64,000 nucleotides of DNA from Spartobacteria bacterium (GTDB lineage Bacteria; Verrucomicrobiota; Verrucomicrobiia; Chthoniobacterales; UBA10450), in assembly GCA_003167555.1 (NCBI GenBank), contig PMSN01000003.1:62001-126000 (forward strand), written 5' to 3'. The notes below the pieces were generated by a model. That model was not told the origin of the DNA and made no database searches. It worked only from the letters and a program-made list of their open reading frames with translations. Shown in pieces: positions 35,885 to 62,324 of this stretch (its first letter is position 1; each line of letters begins with the position of its first letter). Position numbers and translations under genes: made by a program.

Positions 35885-36571
35885 TCAGGCCGTCGCGGCG
35901 GCGTGCGCATCTTCCCAGCGCGTGGCGGCGCGGCGCAGCTCGATTGCGGTCGTCAGGCCGAGCTTTTCTTTGGCGCGCGCGCAATAGGCCTGGACCGTTT
36001 TGAAGTTGATGTGGAGGACGCTGGCGATTTCCGAAGTGCTCAGGCCCCGTCCAAGAAGGCGAAATATTTCCAGCTCGCGATCGCTCAATTGCTCGACCCG
36101 CTCCGCGCTGACCGACTCGCGCTGGCGTTGCCCGGCCACGAGGCTCGCCATCCGCGCGACCACGTTGTCGCTTAGGTAAACGCCGCCTTCGAGCACGCGG
36201 CGGATGGCTGTGAGCACATGGCCGGTCGTCTCCCGTTTCATCACGTAACCGCGGGCGCCCGCCCGCAACGCGCGCTCCGCGTAAAGCATTTCATCGTGCA
36301 TCGAGACCACGATCACGGCCATCGCGGGCTGCTGGATTTTCAAATCCTTGATCAATTCCAATCCCGACGTGTTCTTGAGCGAGATATCGATCAGCGCGAC
36401 ATGCGGCCGGCTCGCCGCGATCGCTGGCAAGGCCGAGACCGCATCTTCCGCGACGCCGCAGATTTCGAGGTCGCTCTCTTGATTGATCAGCGTCCTCAAT
36501 CCGTCGCGCACTAGCGGATGATCGTCGACCACAAACACGCGGCTCTTTCGCGCCAGGAAATCAGATTTCAT
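35885..36571 (-). CDS. NarL/LuxR-family response regulator
   Basis: 228 residues. Receiver domain (FVVDDHPLVRDGL, phospho-acceptor Asp in HVALIDISLKNTSGL, MKRE/ARGYVMKRET lysine) followed by a LuxR helix-turn-helix (ELEIFRLLGRGLSTSEIASV, then INFKTVQAYCARAKEKLGL). The ATG at 36571 overlaps the end of the kinase gene by 11 bases; a longer start at 36613 lies within the kinase. Together they form a two-component pair, likely transcription control. Regulated genes unknown. Confidence 0.93.
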   Translation of the reverse strand: MKSDFLARKSRVFVVDDHPLVRDGLRTLINQESDLEICGVAEDAVSALPAIAASRPHVALIDISLKNTSGLELIKDLKIQQPAMAVIVVSMHDEMLYAERALRAGARGYVMKRETTGHVLTAIRRVLEGGVYLSDNVVARMASLVAGQRQRESVSAERVEQLSDRELEIFRLLGRGLSTSEIASVLHINFKTVQAYCARAKEKLGLTTAIELRRAATRWEDAHAAATA

Positions 36572-37709
36572 CGTGCTCCCTTCCGTTCCGCCGCGCACCT
36601 TGTGGGAGGACACAGGAAATAATTGTCCCCCCCGGGCTGCGCCGCAACGCTCTGAAATCAGCCCCGATCAAATTTGCTCCATGGCGCATTATCTTAAGAC
36701 CGAGTCCATTCGTTTCGCTCGCATCGTCGAGCCCCACGCCGTCATCGAAGACATTGAGGCTCAGTTCTCCATCCGCCGCGTCGAGTTCGATCACGATCCG
36801 CCGCGCGCGCGCGTGCTTCACCGCATTGGCGACCGCTTCCTGCGCGATGCGATAGAACTGCGTCAGCACGGCCGTATCACCGGACTCGCTTTGGCTTTCG
36901 TTATGCTGAAATTCACAATGGATGCCGGTGCGTTCCTGCGTGTTGTGGGCCAGCCCTTCCAAGGCGTTCGCCAATCCTCCTCGTTCGAGATCGGGAGAGA
37001 ATAATCCGCGGGCCAGGTTGCGCGTCAGATCCATTCCCTCCTCGATTAACCCGACGAGCTTCCCGGCCTCCATCGCTTCTTCGGGCAGCTTCGAGTTGAG
37101 CTTTGCTCGAAGCACCTGGGCGGCCAGCGCGGTCCCGGTGAGGTGTTGGCAAAGATTGTCATGCAAATCGTGGCCCAGCCGGCGCCGCTCCCGCTCCGTC
37201 ACCTCGGTCATTTCCTTTTCGAGCCGCATTCGCTCCAGAATTTCTTCCTGGAGATCGGCCGTGCGGAGACGCACCCGATCGTCCATTTGCCGGAGCGAGG
37301 CGCGCCAGCGGGCGAGCAGCCAGACAAAGATCGCGTACGAAGTCAGCCCGACCGCTTCATTCCAGAATCGCACTTCCGGTATGCCGCAGGCGAGATCGGA
37401 GAGGATGGAAGTGCCGACGCTTAGGCCGGACAGGAGCATTCCAAAGCTCCGGCCTACGAACCAGGTTCCCAGGGTAATGGGAATGAGATAAAAGATCAGC
37501 ATCGACCGCTCGTAACCGGTCCAGTAATCGACCAGGCCCACGAGACCAATCCAGATCAACGAAAGCGACGCCACGCTGACGCGGGAGGCTTTCTCCAAGG
37601 CGATGTTCGCAGGCACAACTGCGCGGCCGATCCAAGCCTCTGCCGCGCTTTCCTTTTCGAGCGGGGCAGACCGTGGCGGCGCGAATGTGTCGGAAACCAA
37701 AGCGTCCAT
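36561..37709 (-). CDS. Membrane sensor histidine kinase (HisKA_3 type)
   Basis: 382 residues. Three to four transmembrane helices in the first 140 residues (LSLIWIGLVGLVDYWTG, MLIFYLIPITLGTWFVG, SFGMLLSGLSVGTSIL) form a compact sensor without a large periplasmic domain. The phospho-acceptor His is in RRRLGHDLHDNLCQHL, typical of HisKA_3 kinases that pair with LuxR-type regulators. The ATPase part shows DDGVGLDD and NGLGLKIM. It overlaps the downstream regulator gene, its evident partner. Signal unknown. Confidence 0.93.
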   Translation of the reverse strand: MDALVSDTFAPPRSAPLEKESAAEAWIGRAVVPANIALEKASRVSVASLSLIWIGLVGLVDYWTGYERSMLIFYLIPITLGTWFVGRSFGMLLSGLSVGTSILSDLACGIPEVRFWNEAVGLTSYAIFVWLLARWRASLRQMDDRVRLRTADLQEEILERMRLEKEMTEVTERERRRLGHDLHDNLCQHLTGTALAAQVLRAKLNSKLPEEAMEAGKLVGLIEEGMDLTRNLARGLFSPDLERGGLANALEGLAHNTQERTGIHCEFQHNESQSESGDTAVLTQFYRIAQEAVANAVKHARARRIVIELDAADGELSLNVFDDGVGLDDASETNGLGLKIMRHGANLIGADFRALRRSPGGTIISCVLPQGARRNGREHDEI

Positions 37710-37904
37710 CTCGCTTCCACGAAAGCGATTCGCGTGCTAGGCGACCAATGGACCCCGCGATGCGAGAAGGGCCAGCGCGGTAGCGCTCGCCCTAATCTCT
37801 GGAAACTACGGCAAGAGGTTTTTGAACCGTTCTTAATCGGAATAGCTGTTGCCCTCGACTGGCTTGTCTCTTTCCTTCAGTGGCGACGTAGCTACCCTCT
37901 CGAT

Positions 37905-38783
37905 ATGAAAGCGAATCGCCTGGCACTCACGCTTCTGTTGCTAGCGAGCGCCACGGTCTTTCCACTGGCCGCGCAGCAGACCAAGGCTGATCAAAAGCCG
38001 CTTGAGGAAGTGAAGGCCAAGGCAGAAGCAGGCGACGCAAATTCCCAGGTGGAACTCGGTCTACGCTACGCCAAGGGCGAAGGCGTGGCGAAGGATCCGG
38101 TGGAGGCGGTGAAATGGTTTCGCAAAGCCGCCGAGCAGAATCTCGCCGAGGCTCAATCGAGATTAGGCTTCTGCTATTCCACTGGCGAAGGCGTGGCGAA
38201 AGATCCGGAGGAGGCGCTGAAGTGGTATCGCAAAGCCGCCGAGCAGAATCTCGCCAAGGGTCAATTCAATTTGGCTCTCTGCTACGAGGAAGGCGAAGGC
38301 GTGGCGAAGGATCCGGTGGAGGCGGTGAAATGGTATCGCAAAGCCGCCGAGCAAGGTTACGCCCCGGCTCAGCTCAATTTGGCTTTCTGCTACGCCAAGG
38401 GCGCAGGCGTGACGAAGGATCAGGTGGAGGCCGTGAAATGGTATCGCAAAGCCACCGAGCAGAATGACGCCAAAGCTCAATACTTTTTGGCCCTCTGCTA
38501 CGCCGATGGCGCGGGCGTGGCGAAAGATCAGGCGGAGGCGGTGAAGTTGTATCGCAAAGCAGCCGAGCAGAATCTTCCCGAGGCTCAATACAATTTGGGC
38601 TATCGCCTCTCCACGGGCGACAGCGTGGCGAAGGATCAGGTAGAAGCTTACAAGTGGCTGCTGCTGGCGGCGAAGCAAGGAGATGAGGATGCAAAGAAAA
38701 CCGTGCCCCTGTTGGAAAAGGATCTGACGCCGGAGCAGATCGCGGAGGGACAAAAGCGGGCGAACGATTTTAAGCCGCGGTAG
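37905..38783 (+). CDS. Exported Sel1-like tandem-repeat protein
   Basis: 292 residues with a signal peptide (LALTLLLLASATVFPLAAQ). Six near-identical 36-residue Sel1 units follow, each with AxxxLGxxYxxGxGVxKDxxEAxKWYRKAAEQ-like spacing, then a partial unit and a tail. Sel1 repeats are superhelical protein-binding modules, often with signalling roles. DNA copies of 108 bases are highly similar, suggesting recent duplication or gene conversion. The ATG at 37905 is chosen because it begins the signal peptide; an upstream in-frame ATG at 37734 adds non-signal sequence. It is 40 bases before the transporter gene. Confidence 0.88.
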   Translation: MKANRLALTLLLLASATVFPLAAQQTKADQKPLEEVKAKAEAGDANSQVELGLRYAKGEGVAKDPVEAVKWFRKAAEQNLAEAQSRLGFCYSTGEGVAKDPEEALKWYRKAAEQNLAKGQFNLALCYEEGEGVAKDPVEAVKWYRKAAEQGYAPAQLNLAFCYAKGAGVTKDQVEAVKWYRKATEQNDAKAQYFLALCYADGAGVAKDQAEAVKLYRKAAEQNLPEAQYNLGYRLSTGDSVAKDQVEAYKWLLLAAKQGDEDAKKTVPLLEKDLTPEQIAEGQKRANDFKPR

Positions 38784-38822
38784 GTGGCCATTCACCACGG
38801 CGATCATTCGACGCACATCATT

Positions 38823-40106
38823 ATGACTAAGCGTGCCCTGACTTCCAACAAAGAGAGCCAGAATCCAATTGTCCGGTTTTTCGCCAATCTTGGACCGGGC
38901 TTGATCACCGGTGCGGCAGATGATGATCCCTCGGGAATTGCGACCTATTCCACGGCCGGTGCTCTCTTAGGCACCGGTCAGCTTTGGACGGCGCTCATCA
39001 CCTGGCCGCTGATGGCGAGCGTGCAAATGATGTGCGCACGCATCGGCATGGTGACCGGGCGAGGACTAGCAGGAGCATTTCACCACAAATTCCCCAAACC
39101 TTTGATTGCCATATTCGCGGCGGCACTGCTGATCGCGAACACCATCAACATCGGCGCGGACCTCTCTGGCATGGCGGACGCGGCGGAAATGTTGTCAGGC
39201 ATCAACTCGCACTACTTCGTGATCCTCTTCGGCCTCGCTATCTCTGTTGCTACCGTGCAATTCCGGTATCACCAGATCGCCAACGTTCTAAAATGGCTGG
39301 CTCTCACGCTCTTTGCCTACGTCATCACGGGTTTCGTGATCGGGCCGGACTGGGGCAAAGTCGCTCACGACACTTTTATTCCATCATTGCCCAAGGGGCA
39401 CGAAGGATGGGGGATGCTCGTTGCGATCCTGGGAACGACGATCAGCCCGTATCTTTTCTTCTGGCAGAGCTCACAGGAAGTTGAGGAAGAAAAGGCCATC
39501 GGACGCCGCATGCTGGCCTGGCGAAAAGGGGCGACCAGGCGCGAGATCGGAGCGCGTAAGATGGACGTCGGGATCGGCACATTTTTTTCGAACCTGGTGA
39601 TGTATTTCATCATTTTGAGCACCGCGCTGACTCTGCACGCGCATGGCACGACGAACATCGAAACGACCAAGCAAGCAGCCGAGGCGCTCCTGCCGCTGGC
39701 CGGCAAATTCGCTTATCTCCTCTTCACCGTCGGCATCATCGGTGTCGGCTTTCTCGCCATCCCCACTCTTTCCGGTTCGGCTGCGTACGCTTTCGCCGAG
39801 ACATTCCACTGGCGACAGGGACTTGATTCCAAATTCATGGCCGCACGCGCTTTCTATGGCGTGGTCATTCTCTCCACTCTCATGGGTGTCGGGCTCGATT
39901 TTGCCCGTGTGAACCCGGTCAAGGCGCTTTATTGGACAGCGATCATCAACGGCCTCCTCGCGCCCTTTCTTCTGGTTGGAGTTTGGCTCGTCGCATCCGA
40001 CCGGAAGATCATGCAGAACCAACCCAGTTCTCCTCTGGGTTTGGTGTGCGTCGGGCTGACGACCCTGCTAATGTTTGCCGCCGCCATCGGAATGTTTGTT
40101 TTCTGA
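38823..40106 (+). CDS. Nramp-like divalent metal transporter (divergent motifs)
   Basis: 427 residues with about ten or eleven hydrophobic helices. Overall layout and the first helix (LGPGLITGAADDDPSGIATYS) place it in the Nramp/NRAMP-related superfamily. The usual DPGN in helix 1 is DPSG here, and the MPHNLYLHS of helix 6 is replaced by GTTISPYLFFWQSSQEVEEE. These changes also occur in NRAMP-related proteins with other substrates, so metal choice is uncertain. The ATG at 38823 is preferred over the upstream GTG at 38784. No metal regulator is adjacent. Confidence 0.85.
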   Translation: MTKRALTSNKESQNPIVRFFANLGPGLITGAADDDPSGIATYSTAGALLGTGQLWTALITWPLMASVQMMCARIGMVTGRGLAGAFHHKFPKPLIAIFAAALLIANTINIGADLSGMADAAEMLSGINSHYFVILFGLAISVATVQFRYHQIANVLKWLALTLFAYVITGFVIGPDWGKVAHDTFIPSLPKGHEGWGMLVAILGTTISPYLFFWQSSQEVEEEKAIGRRMLAWRKGATRREIGARKMDVGIGTFFSNLVMYFIILSTALTLHAHGTTNIETTKQAAEALLPLAGKFAYLLFTVGIIGVGFLAIPTLSGSAAYAFAETFHWRQGLDSKFMAARAFYGVVILSTLMGVGLDFARVNPVKALYWTAIINGLLAPFLLVGVWLVASDRKIMQNQPSSPLGLVCVGLTTLLMFAAAIGMFVF

Positions 40107-40318
40107 CGGGAGGAGAGGACCGCGCTCCTAACGAGAATAAGATCAGCGACGGCTACCGGGAGCGAGCGCAAATCGAAGTGGGAGTGGTTCAGTCATGGCG
40201 CGGGGAAGTCAGGCCGAACCTTCTCTCTGCTCGTCGAAGAGCTTTGTCGAGATTGCCTCTGGTCGATCTTCTTTTAGACCGCGCTGACAGTGTGCGGTCG
40301 GTCTCAGCTAATAGTTCT

Positions 40319-40651
40319 TCAATTTCGGATGCGAACCCTCGGTTTCTTGCCTTGCTTCATCTCTTTGAGCTTAATGCAAACGACGGTGAGCCAGGTGATG
40401 TCGAAAGCATTGCCGAGAGGCTCGTCATCTTGGTGGCTCATGCTGCTGTAGGTATCGTCGATACCCACCGCCCAGATTTCTTCGCCAGCCTGCTTGAGCG
40501 CGGTGACGACGTCTGAGCCATCCATGCCCTTAGCCTGTTCTTTGAACAAGTCCCATAGCTTGTCCCGAAAAGGAGAAACCGCATCACGCTGGAATTTCTG
40601 CGATTTCTTCACCTCGCGCCCTCGTATTTTGCCCCCGGTTTTCAAGAACAA
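40319..40651 (-). CDS. Hypothetical protein, 110 aa
   Basis: A soluble, Lys-rich protein with no recognised domain (FRDKLWDLFKEQAKGMDGSD, then VVTALKQAGEEIWAVGIDDT). It starts the AT-richer accessory patch. A stretch of about 212 bases between the transporter and this gene shows nothing else. Coding status is moderate. Confidence 0.5.
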   Translation of the reverse strand: MFLKTGGKIRGREVKKSQKFQRDAVSPFRDKLWDLFKEQAKGMDGSDVVTALKQAGEEIWAVGIDDTYSSMSHQDDEPLGNAFDITWLTVVCIKLKEMKQGKKPRVRIRN

Positions 40652-40670
40652 GTCGCACGGGGCGTAACCT

Positions 40671-40817
40671 TTACAGGCGACCGAGCAAAAACAGAATCAC
40701 AACGATTAGGAGAATGATTCCGATTAGGCCGTGCGATCGGTAGCCGAATCCATAGCCGCGTGTCGGGAAAGCCCCTACTAACAACAGAATTACAACGATA
40801 AGAATAATTAAACCCAT
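40671..40817 (-). CDS. DUF3309-type small membrane protein, 48 aa
   Basis: A 48-residue protein below usual ORF cut-offs: ATG at 40817, GLIILIVVILLLVGAFP, a Gly/Tyr/Arg hinge (TRGYGFGYRSHG), then a second near-copy helix LIGIILLIVVILFLLGRL. This two-helix pattern with a GYG hinge matches the DUF3309 family of small bacterial membrane proteins. It stands 20 bases from the next gene on the same strand. Function unknown. Confidence 0.8.
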   Translation of the reverse strand: MGLIILIVVILLLVGAFPTRGYGFGYRSHGLIGIILLIVVILFLLGRL

Positions 40818-40874
40818 GCGATCATTTCTACTTTCATCCTCGCACTTTCACAAGTCCCGAAGTTAGAAATTCAA

Positions 40875-41219
40875 TTGCCCGAAAGCCGCCGCAAACTTCG
40901 CGTTCGCTTTCCCGCGGAGATAAATTTTGCCTCAGGAAATTATCGATTTATTGCCGGAATAGATTATCTTGGGCGTCTGGACGCGCTCACCAAAGACGTG
41001 CGGAACGACCGCCCGACGCTGAAATCTCAAATCGAAATGGTACGACGGGAGATTCAAGAATATGGCGAGTGCGTCGTCGGCTGCGCGGAATTACGCGTGC
41101 TCTGCCCGGATGAAGTTCCGGCAAGCACTCAATGGAACGCAATCGCCAGGATCGCTAAGAGCGAAAATTGGAGTTTCACCTATTGCCCTGACGGCAGTGT
41201 CAGTTTCGCGAAGCTCTAA
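40875..41219 (+). CDS. Hypothetical protein, 114 aa
   Basis: TTG start, no obvious Shine-Dalgarno. A soluble protein with three Cys (ECVVGCAELRVLCPDE) and a WSFTYCPDGSVSF end; no recognised domain. It lies in the accessory patch and diverges from the DUF3309-type gene. Coding status is uncertain. Confidence 0.45.
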   Translation: MPESRRKLRVRFPAEINFASGNYRFIAGIDYLGRLDALTKDVRNDRPTLKSQIEMVRREIQEYGECVVGCAELRVLCPDEVPASTQWNAIARIAKSENWSFTYCPDGSVSFAKL

Positions 41220-41362
41220 TCCGAAACTGAGCCACTACCCGCCTTTTAGGAATTACGAATCCGATTGCGACCGACTGCTAGTGCTGCAAAGACGCCCGCA
41301 CCAACTAGGCCAGTCGTCGCGCCCTGAATCAGCGCATCCCAATGAACGTACTGGCACCTCCG

Positions 41363-41542
41363 TTACAGCATTTCGGTCTGCTTATGCCCAGCCAATTCCC
41401 GCACGGCCATGGCGAAGGGGTTGATCTGGCTGGGGGCGTCGATCCGCTCGGTGCCGGTGAGCAGGCCTTCGATGGTGACGACCTCGTTAGGGAATTCGCT
41501 GCGGTCGCAGAGCCACTGTAAATTGTCGCCGAAGTAGAGACG
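41363..41542 (-). pseudogene. DNA methyltransferase relic (5' and 3' ends joined)
   Basis: One frame without a start codon encodes RLYFGDNLQWLCDRSEFPNE, the N-terminus of site-specific adenine DNA methyltransferases, then runs straight into VVTIEGLLTGTERIDAPSQ, INPFAMAVRELAGHKQTEML and a stop, which looks like the C-terminal end of such an enzyme. The catalytic middle (several hundred residues) has been deleted. A second copy of the 5' end is at 42916-42972. Not functional. Confidence 0.65.
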
Positions 41543-41620
41543 CGGGGGCGCAGCGTCAATTCAGGAACTCTCCCGTTCGAAGGCGCGTCGTGCTTGACTG
41601 CGGCCATCCTCCGTTTGCCT

Positions 41621-41667
41621 TGGGTTGGGCGCGACTCGAACCCGCAACCAACGCCCTAAAAGGGCGT
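41621..41667 (-). pseudogene. 3' half of a tRNA-Lys (possible attachment-site scar)
   Basis: On the minus strand: anticodon arm ACGCC-CTTTTAG-GGCGT (anticodon TTT, Lys), a short variable loop, TpsiC arm with loop TTCGAGT and one mismatch in its stem, then CCAACCC and the discriminator A. The matching acceptor 5' strand and D arm are absent upstream, so only the 3' half remains. Integrases commonly insert at tRNA 3' ends and duplicate them, which fits the surrounding gene debris. Confidence 0.55.
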
Positions 41668-41743
41668 GGATTTGCTTGGTAACGGGTCTGCGGTTGCGGT
41701 TTAGTTGCTATTTTTTGGGCCTCGTGGCGTCGAAGCGCCTGTC

Positions 41744-41947
41744 TCAGCAAGCGTGCAGATTCAGCGACGGAGCATTCTGCATCGCGAACTGTCGGCTGGT
41801 CTTCTCGTCCGATTTCACTTTGCTGCGGAGATCATCGACGAGCTTCTGGAGCTGGGCGCGTTCTTTCGGATCGAGGGGTTGCTTGAGCACCCTCTCAAAA
41901 TACGAGAGCGCCTCTGCTTCTTGGCCTTGGATGTATGCGTAGCTCAT
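41744..41947 (-). CDS. Small TPR-like protein, about 67 aa
   Basis: Starts at the ATG at 41947, which overlaps the stop of the preceding reading frame (ATGA). Contains one TPR-like helix pair (MSYAYIQGQEAEALSYFERV, then LKQPLDPKERAQLQKLVDD). A single repeat is too little for a stable TPR domain, so it may be the end of a longer gene cut by deletion. Function unknown. Confidence 0.45.
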   Translation of the reverse strand: MSYAYIQGQEAEALSYFERVLKQPLDPKERAQLQKLVDDLRSKVKSDEKTSRQFAMQNAPSLNLHAC

Positions 41948-42972
41948 GATGTTGAGGTGCGATTGTCTGCTGTGTCCAGCATACGGTAAAGCTCCTTTTG
42001 CGCAATCCACTGGAAGCCGCGGTGGTTCGTCAACAGGGCAATGTCAATATCCCCGCCCACGGTCGGCATGTTGCCAGAGAAGCGTTGGTAGTCTGATGTG
42101 GTGCGGATAAGAAATTTCGCGTAATCCACGGCATCTTGAAGCGAGAACGATGCCAGGTTCAGCCGGTGTGAAGGCGCCTCCCAGAGCATATTTACTACGG
42201 TTGGATCGCCCGAGATGGTGCAACCGATTTCATCATACACGTCGACCTTTGTTTTCTTGCCGATGGAAATCAGGTGGGTGCGTGAGATCGGCTCTCCATT
42301 GCCTGCCCGTGCGAAACCAGCAAACTGAAATCCGAATGGAAATCAGTCGTCAGGCTGCAACTCAATCGACAGTTCCATTTTCTTAAGCTGCGCCACCAGT
42401 TGCGCATGAAAATATTTCACAATGAAATCCGACATAGTTCCAAAAAAGTCGTCATCGGAATCCACCTCCGCGGGGAATTTAGGAACTAGGTCGATCATGT
42501 GATTGTAAATGCTGCGATTATTCACAAACCCCCAGCCGTAGATCGCCAGCCCGAAACGGTCCTTCACTGAAAATAGCTTTTGCGTGTAAGGCCAAGTGGA
42601 ACTTGGGATTGTCATCGGAGGAGCCTGCGCATCTTTTATCTCCGTGATCTCCCCGCATTTCTCGCACTTGCCGGTGACAGTCAGTTTTTGATTGATGGCT
42701 TGCGTCAGCGTCGAAAGGCTGTCGGAGGCGATCACAATTCCATCGGGCACGCGGAGGGAACGTTCAGCGTCATTTGATCGGATGACGCTGACAATCGCGA
42801 GTATTTCCGTCAATGAAAATTCCCGTCTCGCGGGGGCGTTCTTCAAGGCTATTTTGTGCGCGATTGACGCCCTTTTCACTTTGGCAATTGCGACGGCGGC
42901 TAGGGCCGCTACGGTCGTCTGATCCCGGTCGCGCAGCCACTGCAAATTATCGCCGAAGTAGAGCCGATTCAT
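41944..42972 (-). pseudogene. Proteasome-like (Ntn-hydrolase-like) gene with internal stop and methyltransferase 5' fusion
   Basis: From ATG 42972 the frame opens with NRLYFGDNLQWLRDRDQ, again a DNA methyltransferase N-terminus, then about 40 low-information residues. The body resembles proteasome beta-like proteins (LRVPDGIVIASDSLSTLTQ, YTQKLFSVKDRFGLAIYGWG) with a CEKCGE zinc-ribbon-like insert. The frame meets TGA at 42343-42345 after LQPDD and resumes in the same frame with FPFGFQFAGFARAGNGEP and GGDIDIALLTNHRGFQWIAQ to a stop at 41944. A Trp codon (TGG) mutated to TGA would explain it. As it stands it is a broken gene; a readthrough or sequencing error would restore it. Confidence 0.65.
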
Positions 42973-42983
42973 TAACAGCGACA

Positions 42984-43009
42984 GATTCCTCGACTTCGCT
43001 CGGAATGAC
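42984..43009. repeat. Half GTCATTCCGAG-family repeat
   Basis: GATTCCTCGACTTCGCTCGG followed by AATGAC is the right arm of the GTCATCCCGAG-type palindrome in a variant form; no left arm is present nearby. It lies just upstream of the proteasome-like pseudogene and in frame encodes the SFRAKSRNLS peptide. Confidence 0.6.
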
Positions 43010-43203
43010 AATAGAGGAAGAGGCGGTTCATTGAGAGGAACAGGAGGAGGTTCCCATTCGCCGGCGCTCAGTGCAAGCTCGCGTCTTCGTTGGGTCGAAA
43101 GCGACCCGACCTCGGACACGCACAACTTCCGCAACCGCTGCGGATCGTTACTGTGCGCGGCGGGCCAGCATCAAGCAAAGCTGAGCCAGCACCAGACAAC
43201 CGA

Positions 43204-44094
43204 TCAAACCGAGGGCGTAGGTTGCCATTTGCAACTTTCCGTTAACATCTTCGACGCATGCCGAGCTAAAAAAAGAGCGTAACGCGCAATCACTTTAAGG
43301 CAGTGCTGCGTCACAGACCAAATCCGCCCGCGTGCATGAACTCCGATTACGAGCAGGCCAAATACTGGCCACACCGCCCAGTGGGTGTATTCCGGGACCA
43401 CAACCAAATTAAAGTTATCAAGCGAAATGTCGTTGTCGTCGGTGCCACCCGTGTTATCGACGCTTGTTCCGCCGACGGTCATGAACGTAAAGCGGATCAG
43501 GCCCGAGTTGCTTCCAGTGTTGAAGGTCAGGGTGGCGTGGCTCCACAAACTGTCCGGGTTGCCGTTGGAGTTGGGTGTCTGAAAATTCGCGGCGGCAATA
43601 TAGAACAAACTGGATGCATTCTGCGGCACGTTTCCTTTTGAATCCAGGCTTACATAGGCGTTGAGAAAAGCCTGTTGTGCCTGCTGGACAGATTCGCCGC
43701 GGAAATCAAAGGTGAGGGAATAACTAGTGTTGGCTGTTAGATTCACAGCCTGGTAAATCGAATTACCCACGGTGTAATTTCCGGTTCCGGCAATACTGTC
43801 CAATTGCACGGAGTAGTTGCCATCCGAAGCTGGAGGTATCCAGTTATCGCCTGTCTGGTTGGTGCCAGCGATATAATTGTCTGCGCCCGATGCCCCGCTG
43901 AGTGTGGTCGTCCAACCAGGAATTTGAGAACCTGCCCCCACGGCTACGGCGGTCGTTGGAGTCACTCCAGTTGTTCCCGTGTCTTCAAAGCTGGGATTCT
44001 GGATCAGGTTTCCATTGGCGGGAGTAGGCGCTCCGCAGAAAAGGACGAAACGGGCGAGCAAGACGGCAAGGCCGGCTCTATTGCAAAGAGACAT
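43204..44094 (-). CDS. Exported PEP-CTERM-like protein with a carbohydrate-binding-type body
   Basis: 296 residues with a signal peptide from ATG 44094 (LAVLLARFVLFCGAPTPANG). The body has the sequence start NLIQNPSFEDTGTTG, shared with DUF642-type and similar carbohydrate-binding modules, and beta-rich repeats. Near the C-terminus VVPEYTHWAVWPVFGLLVIG and then HARGR resembles a PEP-CTERM sorting signal (Pro-Glu, helix, basic end), but about 40 extra residues follow. The extra tail may be a read-on past a lost stop. No exosortase is in the window. Confidence 0.75.
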   Translation of the reverse strand: MSLCNRAGLAVLLARFVLFCGAPTPANGNLIQNPSFEDTGTTGVTPTTAVAVGAGSQIPGWTTTLSGASGADNYIAGTNQTGDNWIPPASDGNYSVQLDSIAGTGNYTVGNSIYQAVNLTANTSYSLTFDFRGESVQQAQQAFLNAYVSLDSKGNVPQNASSLFYIAAANFQTPNSNGNPDSLWSHATLTFNTGSNSGLIRFTFMTVGGTSVDNTGGTDDNDISLDNFNLVVVPEYTHWAVWPVFGLLVIGVHARGRIWSVTQHCLKVIARYALFLARHASKMLTESCKWQPTPSV

Positions 44095-44230
44095 CGAAGC
44101 CTTTCTAGCAAAGGCAATGCCAACGACGTTGGAATCCAGCCTAGCGACAAGGGAGTGCGGACGCAATTCATCGCTAAAAGTTCGCAAGCCATCGGCAGCG
44201 GGCGCGCCGCGCTTCTGCTAAGCGTGCCAG

Positions 44231-44905
44231 ATGGAGAAATCTTGTGTCCTTCTCGCTGGTCTCGCGGCGTTCGTGTTTCTTTGCTCAGCCCATTCTCTTT
44301 GCGCGTCTGAACCTCTCTTCGCCTTCACTTACGAGGTCACTACCGCGGACAAAGGTGAACTGGAATTGGAGAATTGGGTCACGTGGCAGTTTCACCACGG
44401 TCGAAATGGCGAGCCGAACACACACGAATTCGATTTTCGGCATGAGCTCGAGTACGGCGTCACGGATCGGTTCCAAGCCTCGCTCTACTTCGCCGATTGG
44501 CACATCAACGATCATCCCGGCGGCGAGGACCGCGTCCATTACGATGATGCGGCGCTCGAAGTCATTTACCGGCTCTCGAGTCCCGACACCGATTTTCTAG
44601 GCAGCGCGGTTTACGGGGAAATCCGCGGCGGACCGGATTTCCTTGAGTTTGAAGGAAAGATTCTTCTCCAGAAAAATTCCGGAAAATGGATCGCGGCGTA
44701 CAACGCGGAGCTGGAAGGAAGGTGGATGGGCGAGCGTCTGGAAGAACGCGCGGGTGAATTCGCCCAGTCGATCGCGGTGAGCTTTGAGATCAATCCGCGC
44801 TTCACGGTCGGCGCTGAGGCGCTGCATGAGATCGACATTCCGAACTGGGACAAAGCGGATGAGCCGAGTGTGCAGACGCGATTGATTACCGGCTTCGAAT
44901 TTTAG
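44231..44905 (+). CDS. Exported beta-rich protein (outer-membrane barrel-like)
   Basis: 224 residues with a signal peptide (LLAGLAAFVFLCSAHSLCAS). The mature part is made of alternating strands with many aromatic and charged residues (FTYEVTTADKGELELENWVT, VTDRFQASLYFADWHIND) and ends in Phe (LITGFEF), typical of outer-membrane barrels. I cannot name the family. It converges with the EamA-type gene, ends overlapping by 4 bases. Confidence 0.78.
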   Translation: MEKSCVLLAGLAAFVFLCSAHSLCASEPLFAFTYEVTTADKGELELENWVTWQFHHGRNGEPNTHEFDFRHELEYGVTDRFQASLYFADWHINDHPGGEDRVHYDDAALEVIYRLSSPDTDFLGSAVYGEIRGGPDFLEFEGKILLQKNSGKWIAAYNAELEGRWMGERLEERAGEFAQSIAVSFEINPRFTVGAEALHEIDIPNWDKADEPSVQTRLITGFEF

Positions 44906-45327
44906 CGGCGGAGCAGCAACAATCCCGCTATCGACATCACGACCCCGAGCAACCGGAACGGCGACGCGGGCTCTTTGAAGAAGAATATTCCCGCCACCGC
45001 CATCATCGCGGCGCCCACCGCCAGGATCGCCGGCACCGCGGAGAGCGGCCCGCCTTTTTGGAAGAGCAAAAAGAAAACGATCGTGCCCACGCCCACGCAC
45101 AATCCCGTCAGGATCGAGTAGTTGATTCCCGGCATCGACGCCGTCTGACTCCAGCGCCCCGAGAAGCGCAGATAAAGCAGGTAGAGCAGAATCGTGATCG
45201 CAGCCGACGCCTCCACTACGAAACCGCCCAGCCCATCGCTGATATGGTCCGACGCCAGCTTGGTGAAAATCTGGTGCGCCCCGTAAAGAATCGCCGCGAC
45301 GAACGCGTACCAAAACCAGCCGGTCAT
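44902..45327 (-). CDS. EamA/DMT-family membrane protein (short)
   Basis: 141 residues with four to five hydrophobic helices (WFWYAFVAAILYGAHQIFTK, ITILLYLLYLRF, LTGLCVGVGTIVFFLLF, LLGVVMSIAGLLLL). The EamA drug/metabolite transporter fold usually has two such halves; this has one, so it would dimerise like small multidrug resistance or single-domain DMT proteins. Substrate unknown. The ATG at 45327 is 50 bases after the upstream DUF1259 relic. Confidence 0.8.
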   Translation of the reverse strand: MTGWFWYAFVAAILYGAHQIFTKLASDHISDGLGGFVVEASAAITILLYLLYLRFSGRWSQTASMPGINYSILTGLCVGVGTIVFFLLFQKGGPLSAVPAILAVGAAMMAVAGIFFFKEPASPFRLLGVVMSIAGLLLLRR

Positions 45328-45377
45328 GAATGACCGTTGACCGAACCAGACAGAAAGCAAACTCTAGAGACGCCGCC

Positions 45378-62250: not shown

Positions 62251-62324
62251 TACCCCGTGGTGTAACGGTAACACAGCGCCCTTTGGAGGCGTTATTCATG
62301 GTTCGAATCCATGCGGGGTAGCCA
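62251..62324 (+). tRNA. tRNA-Gln (anticodon TTG), CCA encoded
   Basis: 74 bases. Acceptor TACCCCG pairs with CGGGGTA; D arm, anticodon arm GCGCC-CTTTGGA-GGCGT with anticodon TTG (reads CAA), and T arm CATGG-TTCGAAT-CCATG are all regular. G73 and the encoded CCA end it. No frameshifts or mismatches seen. Confidence 0.95.

Follow-up and report, generated by a model that had tools for sequence, protein, structure and literature searches.

Introduction

Islander recognizes islands in tRNA genes by the signature of a displaced 3′ tRNA fragment, with a crossover centred on the anticodon as one of two classes (PMC4383910). We compared with this and two further systems a patch of DNA at positions 40319–43203 of a 64,000-nucleotide window, the term used here for the whole stretch analysed (bases 62001–126000 of contig C26, in a genome of 4.2 Mb, 29 contigs and 98% completeness). 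As in Islander's tRNA-gene islands, the window holds a displaced 3′ fragment broken off in the anticodon region, and relatives carry tyrosine recombinases beside such fragments; unlike them, it has neither an integrase nor an intact tRNA-Lys gene on the same contig, is at most a relic, and would be rejected by the Islander integrase filter. The second system is that of small elements pairing a tyrosine recombinase with a rolling-circle-type Rep (PF23343, ORF2/G2P). Complete examples of 5.15 kb (genome G002) and 5.5 kb (G017) exist in the family, the latter carrying a distant homologue of a gene that is broken in the window; the window, however, possesses neither integrase nor Rep. The third is the N6/N4 DNA methyltransferase with a restriction-endonuclease-like C-terminus (PF01555 plus Mrr_cat/NA-iREase1-like). 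Both ends of such a gene lie at 41363–41542 and a 5′ stub at 42916–42972, but ~490 codons are missing from the first copy and nearly all from the second, leaving no functional gene.

With a probability that we put at about 0.72, positions 41363–42972 are what decay and rearrangement have left of one or more small integrative elements, of the kind that attaches at tRNA-Lys(TTT) in this bacterial family, mixed with two deleted methyltransferase copies. The mobile-DNA debris thus spans ~1.6 kb, beside two small ordinary conserved genes.

A patch within a variable interval

The patch is AT-richer than its surroundings, as an earlier note on this DNA had said: its GC content is 54.0%, against a mean of 60.1% (sd 1.1, minimum 57.1%) for 2885-bp windows outside 37741–44901, and the lowest-GC windows of that size within the 64 kb begin at 40001–40251. 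It lies in an interval that one genus member does not possess. In G003, position 37740 is joined to 44902 with 24 bp between them, at a junction between a sensor kinase gene and an EamA-like transporter gene, and 7.16 kb are missing; G005 shares the left boundary and then continues with other sequence. In the window, the kinase gene occupies 36561–37709 and the EamA-like gene 44902–45360. We therefore treat 37741–44901 as a variable site. Thirteen integrases used as queries found no integrase similarity across the whole 7.2-kb interval, and no Rep similarity was found across it either. Tblastn, profile and synteny comparisons resolve the following features.

37741–44901, no strand: variable interval, absent in G003 (blastn synteny and G003 junction sequence)
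40127–40198, no strand: one copy of a short repeat dispersed through the genome (present several times in this genome, dozens of times in G002 and many times in related genomes)
40319–40651, minus: conserved small gene, not debris (83–87% nucleotide identity elsewhere in G002, G003 and G005; dN/dS 0.10–0.23)
40671–40817, minus: DUF3309 small membrane protein gene (Pfam 6.9e-12; synteny with locus L061)
40875–41219, plus: conserved 114-aa gene, not debris (89–92% nucleotide identity in G005 and G003; dN/dS 0.20–0.29)
41363–41542, minus: internally deleted methyltransferase, the first ~20 codons fused to the last ~40 of a ~560-aa N6/N4 DNA methylase (tblastn, intact homologue L107)
41620–41666, minus: 3′ half of tRNA-Lys(TTT), reaching from the anticodon stem to the discriminator base; remnant of an attachment site (47 nt with 96% identity to G000:C3:15999–16070)
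41667–41722, minus: sequence past the tRNA-Lys break, probable element arm (common to displaced halves L096 and L097; shuffle test)
41780–41960, minus: remnant tail of a TPR-like gene (weak; weak TPR matches only)
41944–42780, minus: Ntn-hydrolase/proteasome-like gene of the phrog_5990 family with an in-frame TGA at 42343–42345 (the alignment to the G017 and G281 homologues continues past the stop)
42916–42972, minus: 5′ stub left of another methyltransferase copy, MNRLYFGDNLQWLRDRDQ (76% identity to L107 over 17 codons)
42983–43011, no strand: dispersed palindrome-type repeat, which also immediately precedes the methyltransferase start at several homologous loci

The left third of the patch, 40319–41239, consists of ordinary conserved genes, in blocks that occupy different places in different relatives. 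In G005 (L061), the DUF3309 gene is linked to the 114-aa gene and the 3′ end of an Nramp gene; the counterpart of 40668–41239 follows directly after the Nramp gene end, without the 558 bp present in the window. Judged from the dN/dS ratios, the genes at 40319–40651 and 40875–41219 are under purifying selection. Searches of the small frames against Pfam, NCBIfam and PHROGs returned DUF3309 and phrog_5990 and nothing else. The frames at 40319–40651, 40671–40817 and 40875–41219, which had been taken for small orphans in a patch made up wholly of element debris, are thus genes with close relatives in the genus or a named domain, and the debris does not reach into the left third. In the synteny comparison proposed in the earlier note, the interval is missing in G003 and the left-third genes are conserved. 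For 41363–42972, the matches listed in the other seven genus genomes include none at the DNA level, tRNA-Lys genes aside; a plasmid collection queried with the patch DNA gave no match.

The displaced tRNA-Lys half

Read on the minus strand, 41620–41666 agrees with the tRNA-Lys(TTT) gene on contig C3 at 45 of 47 positions. The match begins one base past the 3′ end and stops in the anticodon stem, and the 5′ half is missing; it constitutes a displaced tRNA-Lys terminal fragment as Islander defines one. The C3 gene is the sole full-length tRNA-Lys-like match in the genome. The claim of a tRNA-Lys 3′ half, and the proposed check of the segment against the 3′ end of the intact gene, are both borne out, and the same half flanks integrases and one complete element in relatives. 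The break inside the anticodon stem resembles an integrase attachment remnant. Read from the sequence, one of the two mismatches opens a T-stem pair, and we therefore consider the segment not functional. ARAGORN and Rfam, run over the window, report tRNA-Gln at 62251 alone, which places the tRNA-Lys half under their thresholds.

Some 50 bp on the anticodon side of the half resemble the corresponding sequence at L096 and L097, with scores reached by 0/500 and 2/500 shuffles; this similarity beyond the break is convincing for only these two of ten loci and not for the other eight. It suggests that the ~50 bp may be element-arm sequence. In such ends, the arm lies past the anticodon, and the chromosome or a neighbouring element past the 3′ end. 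By way of L096 and L097, the window combines the two marks of a relic, namely a fragment and probable element-arm sequence common to other element ends.

As the intact tRNA-Lys gene lies on another contig, no pair of tRNA and fragment bounds an island at the window locus. Taking the half and the C3 gene as the two ends of one huge island was rejected, as such an island would span well over 200 kb of C26 together with 16 kb of C3 and enclose several tRNA genes. The supposition that an element inserted here at tRNA-Lys is not supported: the gene is on another contig, and the patch lacks an integrase.

Two other tRNA loci of the genome have features of their own. The tRNA-Lys locus (L009 6690–7160; G000:C3:15689–16159) carries a small GIY-YIG endonuclease gene, with partial tRNA-like copies with hairpin-like anticodon arms on both sides; 5′-half copies adjoin tRNA-Lys also in G015, G439 and G442. 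At L015 (G000:C14:82178–83472), a tRNA-Leu(CAA) gene lies near an integrase gene, possibly an occupied island.

Displaced halves and complete elements in relatives

The intact tRNA-Lys gene was used as a query against 81 genomes of the family, which yielded about ten further displaced halves (G002, G009, G021, G026, G027, G029, G034, G440, G445 and G457), all of which break off no more than a few bases from where the window half does. Past the break, three fetched loci (L093, L098 and L102) carry a tyrosine recombinase that starts ~75–150 bp from the end of the half and reads away from it. The Pfam catalytic domain scores above cut-off for two of the three; the L098 recombinase runs off its contig and has a weak match to the central domain alone.

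One of these loci holds a complete element. In G002, 5.15 kb (L093 4013–9247; G002:C38/C54) with a tyrosine recombinase and a PF23343 Rep lie between the displaced half and an intact tRNA-Lys, bounded by 42-bp direct repeats. Contigs C38 and C54 end in an identical stretch of 1252 bases in which the intact tRNA-Lys junction lies, and the two contigs therefore join there. All three parts of an Islander island are thus present, a tRNA, a direct-repeat fragment and an integrase between them. A second element, of 5.5 kb in G017 (L118 3171–8713; G017:C4), encodes an integrase, a Rep that is weakly PF23343-like and a protease-like protein; it sits at the 5′ half of tRNA-Arg(CCT) and is flanked by a perfect 39-bp repeat of that half.

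Broken, probably accessory genes

Homologues in G017 (E 1e-10) and G281 (E 8e-13) match the frame at 42345–42780 together with its extension to 41944 as a single protein, confirming that the gene is interrupted by the TGA. All six members of the alignment match phrog_5990, a phage protein family with no assigned function. The alignment holds the motif DGIxxAxDS, which we take to be the N-terminal pattern of Ntn hydrolases, and matches proteasome chains weakly in profile comparison (E 0.22–0.58). Of the earlier description as a TGA-interrupted proteasome-like gene, the interruption stands; the label, which draws on these motifs and weak profile matches, is a lead. The G017 homologue is distant (~23–27% identity), belongs to an element at a different tRNA, and differs from the window gene in its orientation relative to the element end. 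Its position inside the 5.5-kb element means that small integrative elements of the family carry such genes. The window gene was not found in other relatives (58 searched, E 0.001), and viral contigs queried with the G017 protein gave no match.

Intact methyltransferase homologues (L107 and L109) are ~560 aa long and combine a PF01555 methylase domain with a restriction-endonuclease-like C-terminal part. Tblastn with L107 places its residues 2–25 at 41542–41471 and residues 509–558 at 41512–41366, adjacent and in frame, which marks an internal deletion of ~490 codons; at 42969–42919, residues 1–17 only are matched. A complete PF01555 domain, as a functional methyltransferase would have, is thus not present, the window holding terminal codons alone. 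The earlier note had listed two 5′ remnants. The one at 42916–42972 is indeed a 5′ stub, and 41363–41542 is instead a 5′ end fused to a 3′ end; the deletion and decay that the note had proposed are confirmed. The named relatives retrieved with the methyltransferase peptide belong to soil Verrucomicrobia and include one member of the Chthoniobacterales; the plasmid collection gave no match to the peptide. Ten scanned methyltransferase loci contained no tRNA gene, and no convincing tRNA-Lys half was found at the homologue loci searched. The two deleted copies probably represent a second accessory gene.

Discussion

A mechanistic model for the origin of the half can be proposed. A tyrosine recombinase would cross over in the anticodon region of tRNA-Lys; the 3′ half brought in by the element would restore the gene, and the old 3′ half, displaced, would mark the far end beside the integrase arm of the element. 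The window would retain such an end, in which arm sequence adjoins the displaced half on the anticodon side. The broken protease-like gene may have arrived together with the half, and integrase and Rep would have been deleted, either before the segment came to the variable site or afterwards. Beneath this model lie the identity of the half, the common break region, the integrases beside halves and the one complete element in relatives, together with a further complete element that carries a distant homologue of the broken gene, the large deletions and the interval missing in a relative. With integrase and paired tRNA missing in the window, we file the locus as a relic, not an island.

How the segment came to lie here is a separate matter. 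The half and its neighbours may have come as passenger DNA, either through recombination between short repeats scattered over the genome or in a transfer from some related species, so that an integrase never acted at this locus; we give this nearly even odds. No second attachment repeat or tRNA is present at the locus, the dispersed repeats at 40127–40198 and 42983–43011 lie at block edges, and blocks such as the Nramp 3′ end with DUF3309 and the 114-aa gene travel as units among relatives. Passage of this kind accounts for the arrival of the segment, but not for the integrase-type break of the half, and is compatible with an origin of the half in a small integrative element. A single tRNA-Lys island that carried the methyltransferase as a restriction-modification function and was later deleted, as the earlier note had envisaged, is unlikely. 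A gap of 78 bp separates the methyltransferase stub from the tRNA half, and the intact homologue unites methylase and endonuclease-like parts; yet the stub lies past the 3′ end of the half, where one would expect chromosome or another element. The homologue loci searched, with neither tRNA gene nor convincing tRNA-Lys half, also speak against the methyltransferase as island cargo. As the patch has no integrase or Rep and the half is unpaired with a tRNA, the element and the methyltransferase cannot be placed in a single island.

Two further readings carry little weight. The GIY-YIG gene and the partial tRNA copies around it would allow the fragment to stem from a local duplication system at the tRNA-Lys locus and not from an integrase element; those copies, however, differ in the anticodon arm and break elsewhere, and the window half adjoins no GIY-YIG gene, with comparable halves adjoining integrases, which makes this origin very improbable. 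That the patch consists of ordinary conserved genes with no mobile element holds for 40319–41239 but fails for 41363–42972, with its deletions, stop-broken gene and tRNA fragment and with no match listed in the seven genus genomes apart from tRNA-Lys genes; for the patch as a whole, we regard this reading as scarcely credible.

Understood as the remains of a small integrative element, the window locus is a scar of a known and familiar kind, and the small integrase and Rep elements of the relatives are more interesting than the scar. Tentatively, and with the odds against it, the relic and the G002 and G017 elements might together form an uncharacterised group of ~5-kb integrative elements in soil Verrucomicrobia, with a tyrosine recombinase, an ORF2/G2P-type rolling-circle Rep, insertion in the anticodon region of tRNA-Lys or tRNA-Arg, and an optional Ntn-hydrolase-like accessory protein. 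For annotation, the pieces within 41363–42972 are pseudogenes and attachment-site debris, and 40319–41239 holds genes. For this little-studied soil lineage, the 3′ side of tRNA-Lys emerges as a recurrent integration site, and the window relic points to small integrase and Rep elements that are intact in relatives.
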